A model generated the notes under the pieces. It saw only the letters and a program-made list of their open reading frames with translations, did no database searches and was not told where the DNA came from. The position numbers and the translations under genes are program-made. Positions 7,938-13,714 of a stretch of 34,513 nt of DNA are shown in pieces. The stretch covers positions 1 through 34,513 of the forward strand of contig JAJZAR010000002.1 in the NCBI GenBank assembly GCA_021799315.1. The letters are read 5' to 3'. Origin of the DNA: Thermoplasmata archaeon. Its GTDB lineage: Archaea > Thermoplasmatota > Thermoplasmata > Thermoplasmatales > Thermoplasmataceae. Each line of letters opens with the position of its first letter. Within the stretch, counting starts at the first letter, position 1.

Positions 7938-8618
7938 TTATTTTTTGCTTACGCCGAATAATTCTTCCTCAGTGCCGTTTTCGCTGCCAAATATAACTTT
8001 CTGTATCATACCGCAGAAGATACCCACCTCAACTACCCCCGGTATCGTCTTTATCTGAGCCTCCAGGAGTTTGGGGTTATCAATAAGTCCAAAGTCTGCG
8101 TCGCATATCAGGTTCCCATTGTCGCTGATCCTTCGTTCACCCATTCTTTCTAACACTCTGGAACCAAGAGCTTCTATGTTCGCAATTGTCCGTTCATACA
8201 GAAATGGTACAACTTCCACTGGCACCTTGAACTTCCCTAATTTGGTGACCTTTTTTGATATATCCGCAATTATGCACACAAAATTGCTATTTCTCGCGAC
8301 GATCTTTTCCCTCGTGAGTGCACCTCCTCCCCCTTTTATGAGATTACCATAGGGATCAATTTCATCAGTTCCATCTATATCCAGTAATATGGGCCCTGTG
8401 ACTTTGTTAGACACTGAAAATCCTCTATCTAAAAGCTTTTTTTCAGTGTCTCGAGAAGTAGGAACAAAGACATTGTCCTTAAACTTTTCAGGAGTATTTG
8501 ACATCAATTCAATCAATCGCGTAACCGTTGACCCCGTGCCAATGCCAACAAATCCACTCGATGGGATAAGAGGCAGAGAAGCCTTTGCTGAATTTAGTTT
8601 TAAGTCGACATTATTCAT
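7938..8618 (-). CDS. rpiA: Ribose-5-phosphate isomerase A
   Basis: 226 aa; GFVGIGTGSTV, LDIDGTDEIDPYGNLIKGGGGALTREKIVA and KLGKFKVPVEVVPF. Confidence 0.96.
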   Translation of the reverse strand: MNNVDLKLNSAKASLPLIPSSGFVGIGTGSTVTRLIELMSNTPEKFKDNVFVPTSRDTEKKLLDRGFSVSNKVTGPILLDIDGTDEIDPYGNLIKGGGGALTREKIVARNSNFVCIIADISKKVTKLGKFKVPVEVVPFLYERTIANIEALGSRVLERMGERRISDNGNLICDADFGLIDNPKLLEAQIKTIPGVVEVGIFCGMIQKVIFGSENGTEEELFGVSKK

Positions 8619-8665: not shown

Positions 8666-9175
8666 ATGGAACTTACACCTAAATCATGGAAGAGCAGTTA
8701 TACCGAGATGGAAAGATTAGTTCTCCCAGCAGATACCAACGTATTTAGCTCCCTATACGGCGGTAGGCTCATGGAATGGGTTGACAATGTAGGCTCAATC
8801 GTTGCTTTTAAGCATTGCAGGACAAAAACCGTAACGGGAAGTATTGATAGCCTCTTCTTTCTGGCACCCATACATCTTGGATATATTGTAAAAATGCAGG
8901 GTAGATTGAATTATACGACAGACAGATCAATGGAAATAGAAGTTGATGTATCCGCTCAGGACGCATTTACGGGAAGGGAGCGTTTCACAACAAAAGCTTA
9001 TCTGACCTATGTGGCAATAGATGATGATGGCAAATCTATTTCTGTTCCTCAACTGCTAATGGAGGACGATGATGCCAAAGCAAGATTTAAGGCAGGGCAG
9101 GAAAGGAGCATAAGAAGAATGGACCTTCTCTCTTCAGTCCGCAAGGAAGCCCAAAATTTCGATAAAGCACATTAA
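8666..9175 (+). CDS. Acyl-CoA thioesterase (hotdog fold)
   Basis: 169 aa; LPADTNVFSSLYGGRLMEWVDNVGSIVAFKH typical of the acyl-CoA hydrolase family. Confidence 0.92.
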   Translation: MELTPKSWKSSYTEMERLVLPADTNVFSSLYGGRLMEWVDNVGSIVAFKHCRTKTVTGSIDSLFFLAPIHLGYIVKMQGRLNYTTDRSMEIEVDVSAQDAFTGRERFTTKAYLTYVAIDDDGKSISVPQLLMEDDDAKARFKAGQERSIRRMDLLSSVRKEAQNFDKAH

Positions 9176-9189
9176 TTGCACATAAGAAC

Positions 9190-9198
9190 AATATATAT
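9190..9198 (+). promoter_or_regulatory. TATA-box-like element upstream of the VirB2/VirB6/VirB4-like operon
   Basis: aatatatat, ending 26 nt before the ATG at 9225. Confidence 0.5.
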
Positions 9199-9224
9199 TC
9201 CCATGAAAACTTCAAGGCTCTATT

Positions 9225-9503
9225 ATGTCCTTGATTTACAGAATACATGAATTAACGATGACAACAGTTGCGAATTCATTAACTGATGTCATGTCTAGGT
9301 TAATGACCATAGTTGTAGGTGTATCTGCTGTAGTAATAGCCATCCTTTGGATTCCAATTGCCATATCTTTTTTCAGCACGGATGAACAGAAGAGATATAT
9401 TGCATATTCAAGAGCTAAAAATGCGGCAATAGGAACACTTATTTTTGTTCTTGCTGTTAGTGGAACACTCTATGCCCTATTCCATTACATAGCTGTGGGA
9501 TAA
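9225..9503 (+). CDS. Small two-TM membrane protein, VirB2/TrbC/CedA1-like pilin candidate
   Basis: 92 aa; TM1 LMTIVVGVSAVVIAILWIPIAISFF, basic loop STDEQKRYIAYSRAKNAAIG, TM2 TLIFVLAVSGTLYALFHYIAV. Two helices with a charged loop, first gene of an operon with VirB6-like and VirB4-like genes. Confidence 0.6.
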   Translation: MSLIYRIHELTMTTVANSLTDVMSRLMTIVVGVSAVVIAILWIPIAISFFSTDEQKRYIAYSRAKNAAIGTLIFVLAVSGTLYALFHYIAVG

Positions 9504-9504
9504 A

Positions 9505-10476
9505 TTGCAGTTGATTGGATCCGTTCTATCGTCTCTGGCGGTAGTCATACTAGCAATAGAGTTTCTAATATCGTCTCAATTCTGGAGTCTGGCAATCCAT
9601 CAGGGTCTTGAAAGCAAATACGCATTTCTGTATTTTGAAGATTTCAATACGGCAGTGAATAATTTCCACAGTGAAATTATGGCTTTGCTGCCTATAATTT
9701 TCCTTTTATGTGCAATCTATCTGGCACTGTATCTTTTCCTTTCCGATAAACCTGAATTTATGCAGACAGCATATAAAGGCATAATCAGCATCATAATTTT
9801 CTTCCTCTCCGAACTCTTTCTGAACAAATTGTCTTTTCTTGTCCAGTATGGAAGTTCTTTTCTTCTTTCTCTGTCTCCACACTGGGCATCTTATTTCTCG
9901 GAGTCATACATGCTCTACAATATTCACTATTTTAGCAGTGGTAGCAATTCTGTAATGGAGATTATTCTTGATGGCATATATGTCTCTTCATCCATTTCCG
10001 TTCTATTCTTTCTGATGGTCAGGGTGGCGATTCTCATTGTACTATATCTGGTCCTTCCCTTAATTACGCCATTATATTTCATCGGACATTTGAAAGGTTA
10101 TGTTTTCAGATTTTGGACTCTATATTTACAACTCTTGTTTTCTCCAATCATTATTCTTTTTGTTCTATATCTCTACATAAATTTCACCGGTAATTTTTTC
10201 ATTCAGATGGGATTTCTCCTCCTTCTCACAATTCTTCCATCAAGTTTTATATACACTGCCTACAGAATGGGTTCAGGCCGAAGTGGCCTCGGCACCAGCT
10301 TCTTGATGTGGTCAGGTATGGACGTTCTGAGTGAGGGAGTAGGACTTGGGGTAAGGGCCGGAAACAGGATTAGGGCCAATTCAAAAGAGAAGCTCAGAGA
10401 AGCTGCTCCCGAGTTGCATATGGGTAACATTTTAGGACTGACGAATCGAGGTAAGGAAGACTATGAGCAGAGATAA
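9505..10476 (+). CDS. Polytopic membrane protein, VirB6/TrbL/CedA-like candidate
   Basis: 323 aa, about 6-7 TM segments. RVAILIVLYLVLPLITPLYFIGHLKGYVFRFWTLYLQLLFSPIIILFVLYLY resembles the TrbL/VirB6 core. TTG start directly after the previous stop. Confidence 0.6.
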   Translation: MQLIGSVLSSLAVVILAIEFLISSQFWSLAIHQGLESKYAFLYFEDFNTAVNNFHSEIMALLPIIFLLCAIYLALYLFLSDKPEFMQTAYKGIISIIIFFLSELFLNKLSFLVQYGSSFLLSLSPHWASYFSESYMLYNIHYFSSGSNSVMEIILDGIYVSSSISVLFFLMVRVAILIVLYLVLPLITPLYFIGHLKGYVFRFWTLYLQLLFSPIIILFVLYLYINFTGNFFIQMGFLLLLTILPSSFIYTAYRMGSGRSGLGTSFLMWSGMDVLSEGVGLGVRAGNRIRANSKEKLREAAPELHMGNILGLTNRGKEDYEQR

Positions 10477-12283
10477 TTTTTCTCAGTTGATTCCACTATC
10501 TAATATATTCAATCAGGGTGGGAAGAACAAACCCGTATGGGTTCCGTCAATTATGTTGCTATTGGCCATTTTTCTTTTACTATTCTACTCTGGAATGCTA
10601 CGGCTCGTACCCTATGTTCTTACCTTTGCATTCATCATTACAATCGCATTCTTTTTAAGAAATAGAAAAATAGATTTGCACACACAGGCATTTAATTCCT
10701 ATGGGTTTCTAAAGGGAAAAACAGTATTTTCCATTCGTTCAGACTTCAGATGGGATTCTACAGTTGATGAAATTAGAAATAACTTTTCTCAAATAAACGA
10801 TGCTTTAAAATCTACAGAAAGCAGTTTTACCATAATTACAGTACCGGCCCAGGACTGTGCGGATTTTAAGCTCTCCCACAGCGAAAAAGAGGAATTGAAC
10901 GTAGTCTTCTCCTCATATTTGATTTTAGATGGGGATAGTGGAGAACACGATGGTTTTATAAAGCAAATGAGAGTCTACGGGATCTCCCTTGAAAGGAAGA
11001 ACGTTAACGAGTTATACACCTACTTTGATAAAATTATGGCGGGAAATTTACAGAGAAGGAGGAACTTTATCAAAGGAAAAACCAATTTTTCCATGTCCAC
11101 AATTTCCCAGAGCTTTAAAAGGAGTCATTATCAAGCATCAAGACTCTTAGATTCTCTACCTTTTTCATGTATAACAATTACAAATTTTATCTTGCAAAAG
11201 AAGAGTTCTGATATTATACAAAAGGAAATTTCAAAAATTCTTGCAAAGAGCAGATTGCGCAGTGAAAGAAATCTACCTGAAGGTGAGCAGAATGTTTTGA
11301 GGAGAGAATCTGCTTTGGAGATAAGGAACGATAGTTCTGAATGGTTGTACAGTATCCAGCAGTCATTTATTCTTTCAAGTAAACAGTCATACAAACTTAA
11401 GAGTATGCAAGATGAATTGAGCAATATGTGTGAATCATGGGGACTATCACTTTCTTTACCTGATCACAGGAACAATAAACTTATGGAGAAATTATTCACG
11501 GGAAAATTTATACGATTTCTCCAGACTCCCAACAAATTGTGTGCTTTTTTCACATTTCTCACTGAGGAAAAAGAAGACGGTATAATAATAGGCAAAGATA
11601 GTCAGACAGATAAACCTGTACATTTCGACCCTTTCCTTAAGGGAAGCTATAATATCATTGCCATGGGAGAGACAGGATCAGGAAAGAGCTTCTTTTCAAT
11701 GCTGTTTCTGAGGAGAATGGTGATTGAAAAAAGAGTGAAGCACATAATGATTCTGGACGTGCTCAATGAATACAATCCAAAAACATGGGAGGAACTGTGT
11801 ACAGAGAATGCAGTTGGGATCAGGATACTGAAAATTGAAGATGGTGAAGTTGTAAAAGCAATGGAAGAGGCAATGGACTTCCTAAAATCCTTGGAGGGTG
11901 AAGAGAAAATTATAGTTATAGAAGAAGCTCACGTATTCCTGAACCATTCATATGCCAGTACAGTTCTGGCTCAAATTGTTAAAGTATCAAGGCACTTCAG
12001 GTGTTGTGTATTTACCATATCACAGGATGCAAATGATATTACATCAGAAGAAGGCAAGAAGATCCTAAATAATTCAAATTCTGTTTTCATTTTCAGGAAT
12101 AAGCTTATGGGAGCACTTGAGAAGTTCGGCATAAATATCTCCGAGTTCGGATACGGAAAGGATCAGCTTTCACTTCATGGTGGAAGGAATAGCCAATTTT
12201 CAGAATCATTCTTTTATTCAAACCACAAACTGAGAAAAATTGTCATCTCTGCTTCGTCCGGAGAGAATGGAATATCCTATTGA
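10463..12283 (+). CDS. VirB4/HerA/CedB-like ATPase with N-terminal TM hairpin
   Basis: 606 aa; N-terminal hairpin VWVPSIMLLLAIFLLLFYSGMLRLVPYVLTFAFIITIAFFL, Walker A AMGETGSGKSFF, LDVLNEY, Walker B KIIVIEEAHVFL, sensor TISQDAND. Overlaps the upstream gene by 14 nt. Confidence 0.85.
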   Translation: MSRDNFSQLIPLSNIFNQGGKNKPVWVPSIMLLLAIFLLLFYSGMLRLVPYVLTFAFIITIAFFLRNRKIDLHTQAFNSYGFLKGKTVFSIRSDFRWDSTVDEIRNNFSQINDALKSTESSFTIITVPAQDCADFKLSHSEKEELNVVFSSYLILDGDSGEHDGFIKQMRVYGISLERKNVNELYTYFDKIMAGNLQRRRNFIKGKTNFSMSTISQSFKRSHYQASRLLDSLPFSCITITNFILQKKSSDIIQKEISKILAKSRLRSERNLPEGEQNVLRRESALEIRNDSSEWLYSIQQSFILSSKQSYKLKSMQDELSNMCESWGLSLSLPDHRNNKLMEKLFTGKFIRFLQTPNKLCAFFTFLTEEKEDGIIIGKDSQTDKPVHFDPFLKGSYNIIAMGETGSGKSFFSMLFLRRMVIEKRVKHIMILDVLNEYNPKTWEELCTENAVGIRILKIEDGEVVKAMEEAMDFLKSLEGEEKIIVIEEAHVFLNHSYASTVLAQIVKVSRHFRCCVFTISQDANDITSEEGKKILNNSNSVFIFRNKLMGALEKFGINISEFGYGKDQLSLHGGRNSQFSESFFYSNHKLRKIVISASSGENGISY

Positions 12284-12525
12284 TCGTAAGCTCCTGATTT
12301 AATGTATCCTACCCCAAGAAGCCCAAAAACAGCCATTGGTAAACAGAATGCGTATATACCTGGGTCCGTCCATGTATCGAATAAGATTGACCAGACAAGG
12401 TAAAAAAATACTCCTATTGCTAGGAATATCATACTTACTGCAAGAAGAGCATTTTTGTATGTAATAGTCGCTTTTTTATTATCTGGACTTGGTAAAGCCT
12501 CCATTGTCAACCCATACTGAATCAT
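12277..12525 (-). CDS. Small membrane protein (2 TM), convergent with the VirB4-like gene
   Basis: About 82 aa from the internal Met; LLAVSMIFLAIGVFFYLVWSILF and IYAFCLPMAVFGLLGVGYI are hydrophobic segments. 7-nt 3' overlap with the ATPase gene. Confidence 0.6.
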   Translation of the reverse strand: MIQYGLTMEALPSPDNKKATITYKNALLAVSMIFLAIGVFFYLVWSILFDTWTDPGIYAFCLPMAVFGLLGVGYIKSGAYDQ

Positions 12526-12647
12526 TCTATTTAACACTTGTTAGAAGGAATTCCACATTTGCCTGACCGTGAGGAACTAGGAAATATTCGAAGTAAATTA
12601 TACGCATTTGTTATGGGTGAACTATCAAAATTATAAAATAAAATCTC

Positions 12648-12808: not shown

Positions 12809-13168
12809 ATGGTTGATGAAGCTGCTTCTTATTTTAACTGTACTGATCGCGAAAGAGCAATTTTTGAGGCAGGCATCAAGTTAGGGTCTATCTATCACCA
12901 GTACGTTGGTGTTCCTATGAATCAGTCTAACATTGATGCCATGGAACAGGCAATTCAAAAGAGTGTTATGGTACAACCTTTTGTCAAGTCAGCAACGGTT
13001 AGCATCGACAGGAATATGGTAAAAAAGTCCACAGGTCATTACAAATATGGCACGCTCAAGGGAGAAATGCTGAATGTAACTCTTGAGGTGGAATATAACA
13101 ATCAAGCTGTTCGGGCGAGAATGGAGTATGTAGAGAAATTGGATTACCCTCTTATGTTTTTGGAGTAA
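12809..13168 (+). CDS. mptD: MptD-type archaeal dihydroneopterin aldolase
   Basis: 119 aa; FEAGIKLGSIYHQYVGVPM...QPFVKSATVSIDR...YGTLKGEMLNVTLEVEYN matches the COG2098/MptD pattern. Confidence 0.85.
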   Translation: MVDEAASYFNCTDRERAIFEAGIKLGSIYHQYVGVPMNQSNIDAMEQAIQKSVMVQPFVKSATVSIDRNMVKKSTGHYKYGTLKGEMLNVTLEVEYNNQAVRARMEYVEKLDYPLMFLE

Positions 13169-13171
13169 AAA

Positions 13172-13714
13172 ATGGCAGTAAAAATTGGAATAACTGGGCC
13201 AGTTGGCGCAATAAAGGCTGAAGCCTTGAAAAAGATAATGGAAATGTTGGACAATCAGCAGAAGATTGTTCAGGGTGTGTTAGTGAGTGAAGTATTTACA
13301 AACAATAAGCTCACTGGTTATACGATATTTGATATATATTCAAAGAAAAAGGCTCAATTTGCAGATATTAGCCTTGTTTCAAGAATAAAAATAGATAAAA
13401 TTGGGGTTGATACAAGAATTCTGGAAGAAGTCCTGATACCAAGTCTTCAGAGAGCAAGAGAACAGGCAGATGTCATTGTTATTGATGAGATTGGGAAACT
13501 GGAAATGACATCAAAGAATGTGCAAAAGGAAATAAATGATACGTTAAATTTCACAAAGCCCATGATAGTGACTGTACATAAAAAATCGAGAAACCCCGTA
13601 CTTCAGGAGATCAGAGCGCTGGAAGGTGTCAGGGTATTTGATATCACACCAATCAACAGGAGTCTTCTACCTTACAGGGTGATGAAAGTAATAACTGGAG
13701 AGGAGCCCATATGA
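13172..13714 (+). CDS. THEP1-family nucleoside triphosphatase-like protein with degenerate P-loop
   Basis: 180 aa; Walker-B-type VIVIDEIGKLEM and VTVHKKSRNP as in THEP1, but the P-loop reads GITGPVGAIKAEAL. Confidence 0.85.
   Translation: MAVKIGITGPVGAIKAEALKKIMEMLDNQQKIVQGVLVSEVFTNNKLTGYTIFDIYSKKKAQFADISLVSRIKIDKIGVDTRILEEVLIPSLQRAREQADVIVIDEIGKLEMTSKNVQKEINDTLNFTKPMIVTVHKKSRNPVLQEIRALEGVRVFDITPINRSLLPYRVMKVITGEEPI

Follow-up and report, generated by a model that had tools for sequence, protein, structure and literature searches.

A chromosomal operon of three genes in a member of the Thermoplasmataceae (Thermoplasmata archaeon, GenBank assembly GCA_021799315.1) is best explained as a domesticated, relaxase-free minimal type IV secretion system (T4SS), which rather probably serves DNA exchange. 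The operon occupies positions 9225 to 12283 of a 34,513-nucleotide stretch of contig JAJZAR010000002.1, the whole of which is referred to here as the window. Its products are predicted to be a VirB2-type pilin, a polytopic channel candidate and a VirB4 protein, and it can be held with high confidence that the three genes encode a single T4SS-derived machine. All three open reading frames (ORFs) lie on the + strand and code for 92, 323 and 606 aa; the first two are separated by 1 bp and the last two overlap by 14 bp, exactly the tightly packed, co-directional set that an earlier note, made from the sequence of this DNA, had described. The arrangement is a real gene set and not a product of chance, because the same three-gene order is kept across loci and the ratio of non-synonymous to synonymous substitution (dN/dS) is 0.07-0.23, as measured in close pairs with unsaturated dS. 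The parts of the operon are as follows.

9190..9199, + strand: TATA-box-like sequence AATATATATT, recognized by eye, about 31 nt 5' of the first ATG
9225..9503, + strand: VirB2-type T4SS pilin (PF18895), 92 aa, predicted helical hairpin with a basic cytosolic/luminal loop
9505..10476, + strand: polytopic channel candidate, 323 aa, about seven transmembrane (TM) helices, TTG start, VirB6-like by position and topology
10463..12283, + strand: VirB4 protein, 606 aa, whole ORF
10463..10912, + strand: N-terminal two-helix membrane module of the VirB4 protein, residues ~1-150
10913..12283, + strand: VirB4 ATPase domain, assigned from the profile comparison with the PDB, the tree and invariant columns
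11666-11689, + strand: Walker A motif GETGSGKS of the ATPase domain
11909-11932, + strand: Walker B motif IIVIEEAH of the ATPase domain
VirB4 protein, near residues 507-521: arginine/histidine motif

The spacing of AATATATATT fits a leaderless archaeal transcript, and the box is a putative leaderless promoter.

By hydrophobicity and sequence, the 606-aa protein consists of two N-terminal helices followed by a P-loop domain. In model scans, the single sequence fitted VirB4/TraC better than HerA or CedB; the DUF87/HerA central domain was matched at 8e-7, and the CedB model gave 21.8 bits against a cut-off of 700 bits. When a profile of the ATPase family was compared with the PDB, the best match overall was the solved VirB4 4ag5 (E 4.7e-25), whereas HerA-type entries reached 1.9e-16 or worse. 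The same profile recognized conjugative VirB4 proteins at 1.7e-39 to 8.6e-80, including those of Pontibacillus (8.6e-80), Paenibacillus (1e-58), pNOB8 (8.7e-53) and a haloarchaeal plasmid (4e-50), and the Ced ATPases CedD and CedB at 8.6e-33 and 5.8e-18 respectively. In a 45-row tree, the ATPase fell inside the VirB4 clade (25 rows, support 99/96), apart from which stood a CedB+TedB clade (12 rows, 92/88), CedD and HerA. The TedB rows of this tree were TedBs encoded beside ParA/pilin genes, and ATPase sequences from Vulcanisaeta and Pyrobaculum were rejected as Ted, being HerA-like. Viral contigs yielded no relatives, and a search of genome contigs with the single ATPase sequence returned nothing.

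The VirB4 core profile begins only at residue 151. The two-TM module before it occurs, in roughly half of the sister genera, as a separate ORF of 192-282 aa located between the channel and ATPase genes (loci L072, L076, L078, L080, L081, L084, L087-L090 and L101). The module recalls VirB3 by place and topology, and has no Pfam VirB3/PrgI match. These comparisons identify the 606-aa protein, at the level of sequence, as a genuine VirB4 that carries a fused membrane module at its N-terminus. The earlier note had called it a HerA/VirB4-type ATPase; the VirB4 half of that name was confirmed by profile and tree, and an identity with HerA or CedB was not.

Judged from hydrophobicity, the 92-aa protein is a pair of hydrophobic helices with the basic loop STDEQKRYIAYSRAKNAA between them. 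It scored 27.7 bits with PF18895 (T4SS_pilin), for which the curated cut-off is 26.6; 28 of 33 relatives matched the same family, and two matched TrbC/VirB2 (PF04956). The loop carries a net charge of +2 (median across the pilins) and the ends carry about 0; the positive-inside rule therefore predicts a cytosolic loop in the membrane, as in VirB2. A single-sequence AlphaFold2 model was a plain hairpin of two long helices with a predicted local distance difference test (pLDDT) score of 83.5. Searches of the PDB by phmmer with the single pilin sequence, the single channel sequence and the pilin profile returned chance matches alone. Family membership and topology thus mark the 92-aa protein as a VirB2-type T4SS pilin. 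Pilins of the sister families f3-f5 often have a third hydrophobic segment, which the pilin of the window lacks. In family f5, the stretch from the small pilin to the channel gene holds an array of giant pilin-domain proteins, encoded in tandem and 320-405 aa long, in all of which a hydrophobic N-terminus is combined with a pilin-like segment (L094:8826-13685 and L097:3926-7678).

The 323-aa protein, with about seven hydrophobic helices, was found in 37 of 38 related T4SS loci. The best match of its family profile in the PDB, and the sole T4SS one, was TrwL, the VirB2 pilin of R388 (E 0.19), aligned with an N-terminal region. This alignment agrees with the reported kinship of VirB2 and VirB6 at their N-termini (PMC9905601). 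A TrbL/VirB6-like core had been claimed for the protein; the window's own sequence has no TrbL match, and one distant family member (L096) matches TrbL/VirB6 (PF04610) at E 6.6e-4 / 2.5e-4. A structure model reached a pLDDT of 56.5, too poor for a fold search. The 323-aa protein is thus the least certain part of the machine, a polytopic channel candidate with a weakly indicated link to VirB6.

Among 121 related genomes, the ATPase was matched in 91 and PF18895 in 84, and 22 of the 121 whole genomes had a PF18895 match above the cut-off. The pilin-channel-VirB4 order was kept in 26 of 27 same-family loci, covering all 19 sampled genera, with the one exception truncated at the edge of its contig. 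Most loci from four other families had it too; the synteny check proposed earlier thus came out in favour of the operon. Besides the window, 38 T4SS loci were fetched, of which 36 contained the pilin and 37 the channel in the same order; the pilin of L100 was lost to a contig end, and L092 contained the ATPase alone in the stretch taken. The rpiA/thioesterase flank adjoined the operon in 15 of 19 genera. Within the family, identity to the window proteins was mostly 45-60% for the pilin, 23-48% for the channel and 25-33% for the ATPase, compared with 33-55% for the neighbour rpiA, 55-76% for dihydroneopterin aldolase (DHNA) and 66-85% for the NTPase. Within the genus, the ATPase was 33% identical and three housekeeping neighbours 55-85%. 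The pilin is thus the most conserved of the three parts and the VirB4 motor the fastest evolving, the reverse of the usual expectation for a T4SS, in which the motor is more conserved than the pilin.

Distances of the operon genes tracked those of the flanking thioesterase (Mantel r 0.49-0.60, p 0.001), and channel and ATPase distances correlated most strongly (r 0.80). Signs of mobility, such as sporadic distribution, incongruent phylogeny and mobile-element neighbours, were not seen. Given the low dN/dS and the distances congruent with the thioesterase, the operon is functional and inherited with the chromosome; it is conserved, vertically transmitted and under purifying selection. Presence in all genera, a single chromosomal place, congruence and purifying selection together point to a domesticated, relaxase-free minimal T4SS and not to a plasmid remnant.

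The neighbours of the operon are the following.

7938..8618, - strand: rpiA, conserved chromosomal flank outside the machine (PF06026, 7.7e-51)
8666..9175, + strand: 4HBT thioesterase, conserved chromosomal flank (PF03061, 8.8e-15)
12277..12537, - strand: M86, convergent 86-aa two-TM protein linked to the operon by conservation
12809..13714, + strand: mptD-type DHNA + archaeal NTPase_1, conserved far flank (PF04038, 3.5e-43; PF03266, 4.5e-46)

Pfam matches thus bore out the housekeeping flanks that had been read from the sequence. Elsewhere in the window, the ORFs that were scanned are ordinary genes of archaea, including those for glutamate dehydrogenase, an ammonium transporter, purine biosynthesis and CTP-dependent riboflavin kinase, as well as aIF2-type, IleRS-type and NADH-dehydrogenase genes. 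Among the same scanned ORFs, integrase or replication genes and a VirD4 coupling protein linked to the operon were not found. The description of a minimal VirB2/VirB6/VirB4-type chromosomal operon with no relaxase in the window is supported. The window belongs to an assembly of 1.67 Mb that is 71.6% complete, and genome-wide absences are therefore weak evidence.

Of 27 same-family loci, 24 contained M86. Measured from the ATPase stop, the stop of M86 lay at -74 to +164 bp in every one of 25 loci, including the window, and the gene stayed by the ATPase even where the operon had moved or was inverted relative to rpiA. M86 appears to be a new operon-linked membrane gene and a candidate accessory part. 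A 588-aa VirD4/TrwB/HerA-like ATPase with a match to the TrwB/VirD4 DNA-binding domain (PF10412, 1.1e-7) is encoded on contig C155 of the same genome (L102:3651-5414, - strand), and was conserved in 32 of 37 family genomes searched, the window's own included. This ATPase is a candidate coupling protein; the absence of such a protein, as claimed before, therefore holds for the window only. Its gene overlaps an orphan 299-aa gene with no Pfam match. In family f3, a second, related ATPase of ~680 aa comes after VirB4 within the operon (L088:1072-3108, L090:413-2446 and L101:7332-9362); the L088 copy, the only one of the three scanned, had CedB as its best NCBIfam match (1.4e-7). The tree joins the L102 ATPase with the f3 second ATPase (97/96), a join that was flagged as a long-branch one and is not relied on.

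For comparison with known systems, Ced loci were fetched from Desulfurococcales and Sulfolobales and Ted loci from Thermoproteales, and a fetched CedA1 was checked against the solved archaeal pilin 8dfu (5.8e-23). The operon shares with Ced a small two-helix pilin, a polytopic channel, a membrane-anchored ATPase of the HerA/VirB4 superfamily and a chromosomal location. The Ced of Desulfurococcales, a tandem CedA1-CedA-CedB, also has the same pilin-channel-ATPase order. In contrast, Ced has a CedB+CedD pair where a single VirB4 is present here, the channel lies outside the CedA sequence family, and the pilin shows no detectable likeness to CedA1 in what is a low-power comparison; CedA2 and CedE were not found, no search having been aimed at them. 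In profile-profile alignments (hhalign), the ATPase matched CedB with a probability (P) of 99.7. The channel matched CedA or TedA with P <1 (CedA 0.06-0.9), whereas the positive controls, TedA with CedA and CedA1 with CedA, gave P 93 and 97 respectively. The pilin matched CedA1 with P 8-13 against 6 for reversed controls, and CedA1 likewise failed to match TedC (P 0.3); since these two proven pilins miss each other, the negative result for the pilin with CedA1/TedC carries no weight. In one subset the pilin matched the N-terminus of TedA with P 47 (reversed controls ~1), which is taken as a lead only.

Ted shares with the operon the three core parts, one VirB4-like ATPase, the chromosomal location and this weak pilin-TedA similarity. 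It differs in that TedB clusters with CedB (92/88), TedA and TedC miss the channel and pilin profiles, and the ParA, HerA and Rad50 neighbours of Ted are absent at the operon. The earlier comparison with Ced and Ted holds for the parts list, with no detectable sequence similarity in the channel and, at low power, in the pilin to CedA1. Because the ATPase belongs to the VirB4 clade and the channel profile misses CedA/TedA, the operon, as far as sequence comparison reaches, resembles Ced/Ted in its parts and their arrangement but forms a T4SS lineage of its own, in which the motor is a plain VirB4. Conjugative FATA-type T4SSs (CD1110 family NF045971; pNOB8/pHVE14 VirB4; T. pseudethanolicus 4ag5) share the VirB4 clade, the VirB2-type pilin (PF18895/TrbC) and, with the channel and the membrane module counted as putative VirB6 and VirB3, the order VirB2-VirB6-(VirB3)-VirB4. 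Unlike these, the operon is chromosomal and vertically inherited, with no linked VirD4, no relaxase in the window, no VirB1/B5/B8-B11 seen at the operon and a VirB4 fused to a membrane module. One Desulfurococcales genome that carries Ced has, in addition, a true VirB4 (L218:6886-9326), preceded by a VirB3-like two-TM protein with Filamin/Ig-like repeats and a weak match to TcpE.

Components of such a system have been annotated before. A type IV secretion cluster, CSP5_1185-1189, was reported in Cuniculiplasma divulgatum (Golyshina et al., 2016; PMC5155288), with a VirB4 (arCOG04034), a multipass protein and membrane proteins, one of them 'conserved in Thermoplasmatales only'; the same paper lists an unlinked VirD4-family ATPase. 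This cluster is very probably the same operon, and agrees with the Thermoplasmatales host suggested in the earlier note, but was described by arCOG annotation only, with no identification of a pilin/VirB2, DNA-exchange proposal, selection or phylogeny. VirB4 has also been noted in E-plasma (PMC10354927), and Thermococcus pT33-3 is a euryarchaeal conjugative plasmid that uses VirB4 and VirD4 (PMC12857230). The earlier note's remark that it was aware of no characterized euryarchaeal system is fair for function, but not for components. No literature naming the pilin, proposing DNA exchange or comparing the operon with Ced/Ted was found, in a survey that covered few subscription papers and leaves absence unproven.

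That the machine transfers DNA between cells is probable by analogy, on the grounds of the parallel with Ced (PMC11868833), the lack of effector genes and the heavy recombination of Ferroplasma (PMC2704941). In Sulfolobales, deletion of cedA, cedA1, cedB or cedD abolishes import of chromosomal DNA (PMC11868833). Several observations weigh against this reading. No relaxase or DNA-processing gene was found in the scanned window ORFs or beside the operon, with no genome-wide relaxase search made; the VirD4-like ATPase is unlinked to the operon in the host family; no strong VirB6, CedA or TedA match was obtained for the channel in profile comparisons; and Foldseek with the pilin model gave nothing below E 0.001, a search that is uninformative because two long helices match anything. 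Elsewhere, VirB4/VirB2 systems also serve for protein secretion or as adhesive pili. The same core might instead have been domesticated as a pilus for secretion or adhesion, with which the cell delivers effectors to neighbours or grips them. The lack of a relaxase in the operon and the scanned window ORFs would suit such a role, as would the fast divergence of channel and ATPase, which is also seen in conflict or recognition systems. Relaxase-free T4SSs of patescibacteria are likewise thought to have been co-opted for other functions (PMC12102498). Such a pilus nevertheless seems unlikely: apart from M86, the operon is accompanied by no candidate gene for an effector or for immunity, a variable weapon would hardly be conserved throughout the family, and Ced, the closest functional parallel in archaea, moves DNA (PMC11868833).

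It is improbable that the operon is a true crenarchaeal Ced/Ted member that reached the euryarchaea. The identical parts list, the gene order of Desulfurococcales Ced, the ATPase-CedB alignment and the weak pilin-TedA match speak for it, but the ATPase nests with VirB4 apart from CedB, TedB and CedD and falls far below the CedB cut-off, and the channel misses CedA/TedA, which find each other readily. That the operon is what remains of a decaying integrated conjugative plasmid, or a passenger of one, is very improbable. The best plasmid matches of the single ATPase sequence were Sulfolobus plasmids, mostly conjugative in the literature (the two examined were typed conjugative by PLSDB), and the window has no relaxase; yet the operon is intact in all 19 genera, in a fixed place, congruent with its housekeeping flank and free of integrase or replication genes in the scanned ORFs, and decay is refuted by dN/dS and conservation. 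Least probable of all is a HerA-type repair ATPase beside two unrelated membrane proteins. The DUF87/HerA match is in its favour, but VirB4 outscores HerA, no NurA gene is a neighbour, a T4SS pilin family adjoins and the ATPase belongs to the VirB4 clade. Of the three results that the earlier note had named as refuting, two did not occur, namely a link to canonical HerA/NurA repair and a loss of synteny; the HerA/NurA identity is refuted by the PDB profile ranking, the pilin family membership and the tree.

If the operon is a DNA-exchange T4SS, VirB4 would use its N-terminal helices as a membrane anchor, replacing separate VirB3/VirB8 proteins, and would dock on the seven-helix protein as a VirB6-like pore. 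It would pull hairpin pilins from the membrane into a short tube with a basic lumen, forming a bridge to another cell. Single-stranded DNA would then be driven through the pore by VirB4 and enter homologous recombination, as proposed for Ced/Ted. The separately encoded VirD4-like ATPase may feed or receive the DNA. That the cell bearing the pilus imports DNA, and does not export it, is somewhat less likely than not.

New here are the linked 86-aa M86, the genome-encoded VirD4-like ATPase and the operon-wide conservation; T4SS components as such were annotated in Cuniculiplasma as early as 2016. In acid mines, Ferroplasma populations are mosaics produced by frequent recombination (reviewed in PMC2704941), and the Ferroplasma genomes lacked type IV pilus genes that are present in their neighbours (PMC3750248). 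With Thermoplasmatales as the host order, a minimal T4SS that is universal in the family and vertically inherited is a candidate agent, directly testable, of DNA movement between such cells. If it does move DNA, archaea would have domesticated T4SSs more than once, with a plain VirB4 here and CedB+CedD in Sulfolobales, and three proteins with an anchor would be near the smallest natural T4SS. As a tentative proposal at slightly less than even confidence, the operon may add to Ced and Ted a third, independent machine for DNA exchange encoded in archaeal chromosomes, one that is ancestral to the host order, includes M86 as a new accessory part and causes the frequent recombination seen in natural populations, such as the mosaic genomes of Ferroplasma.

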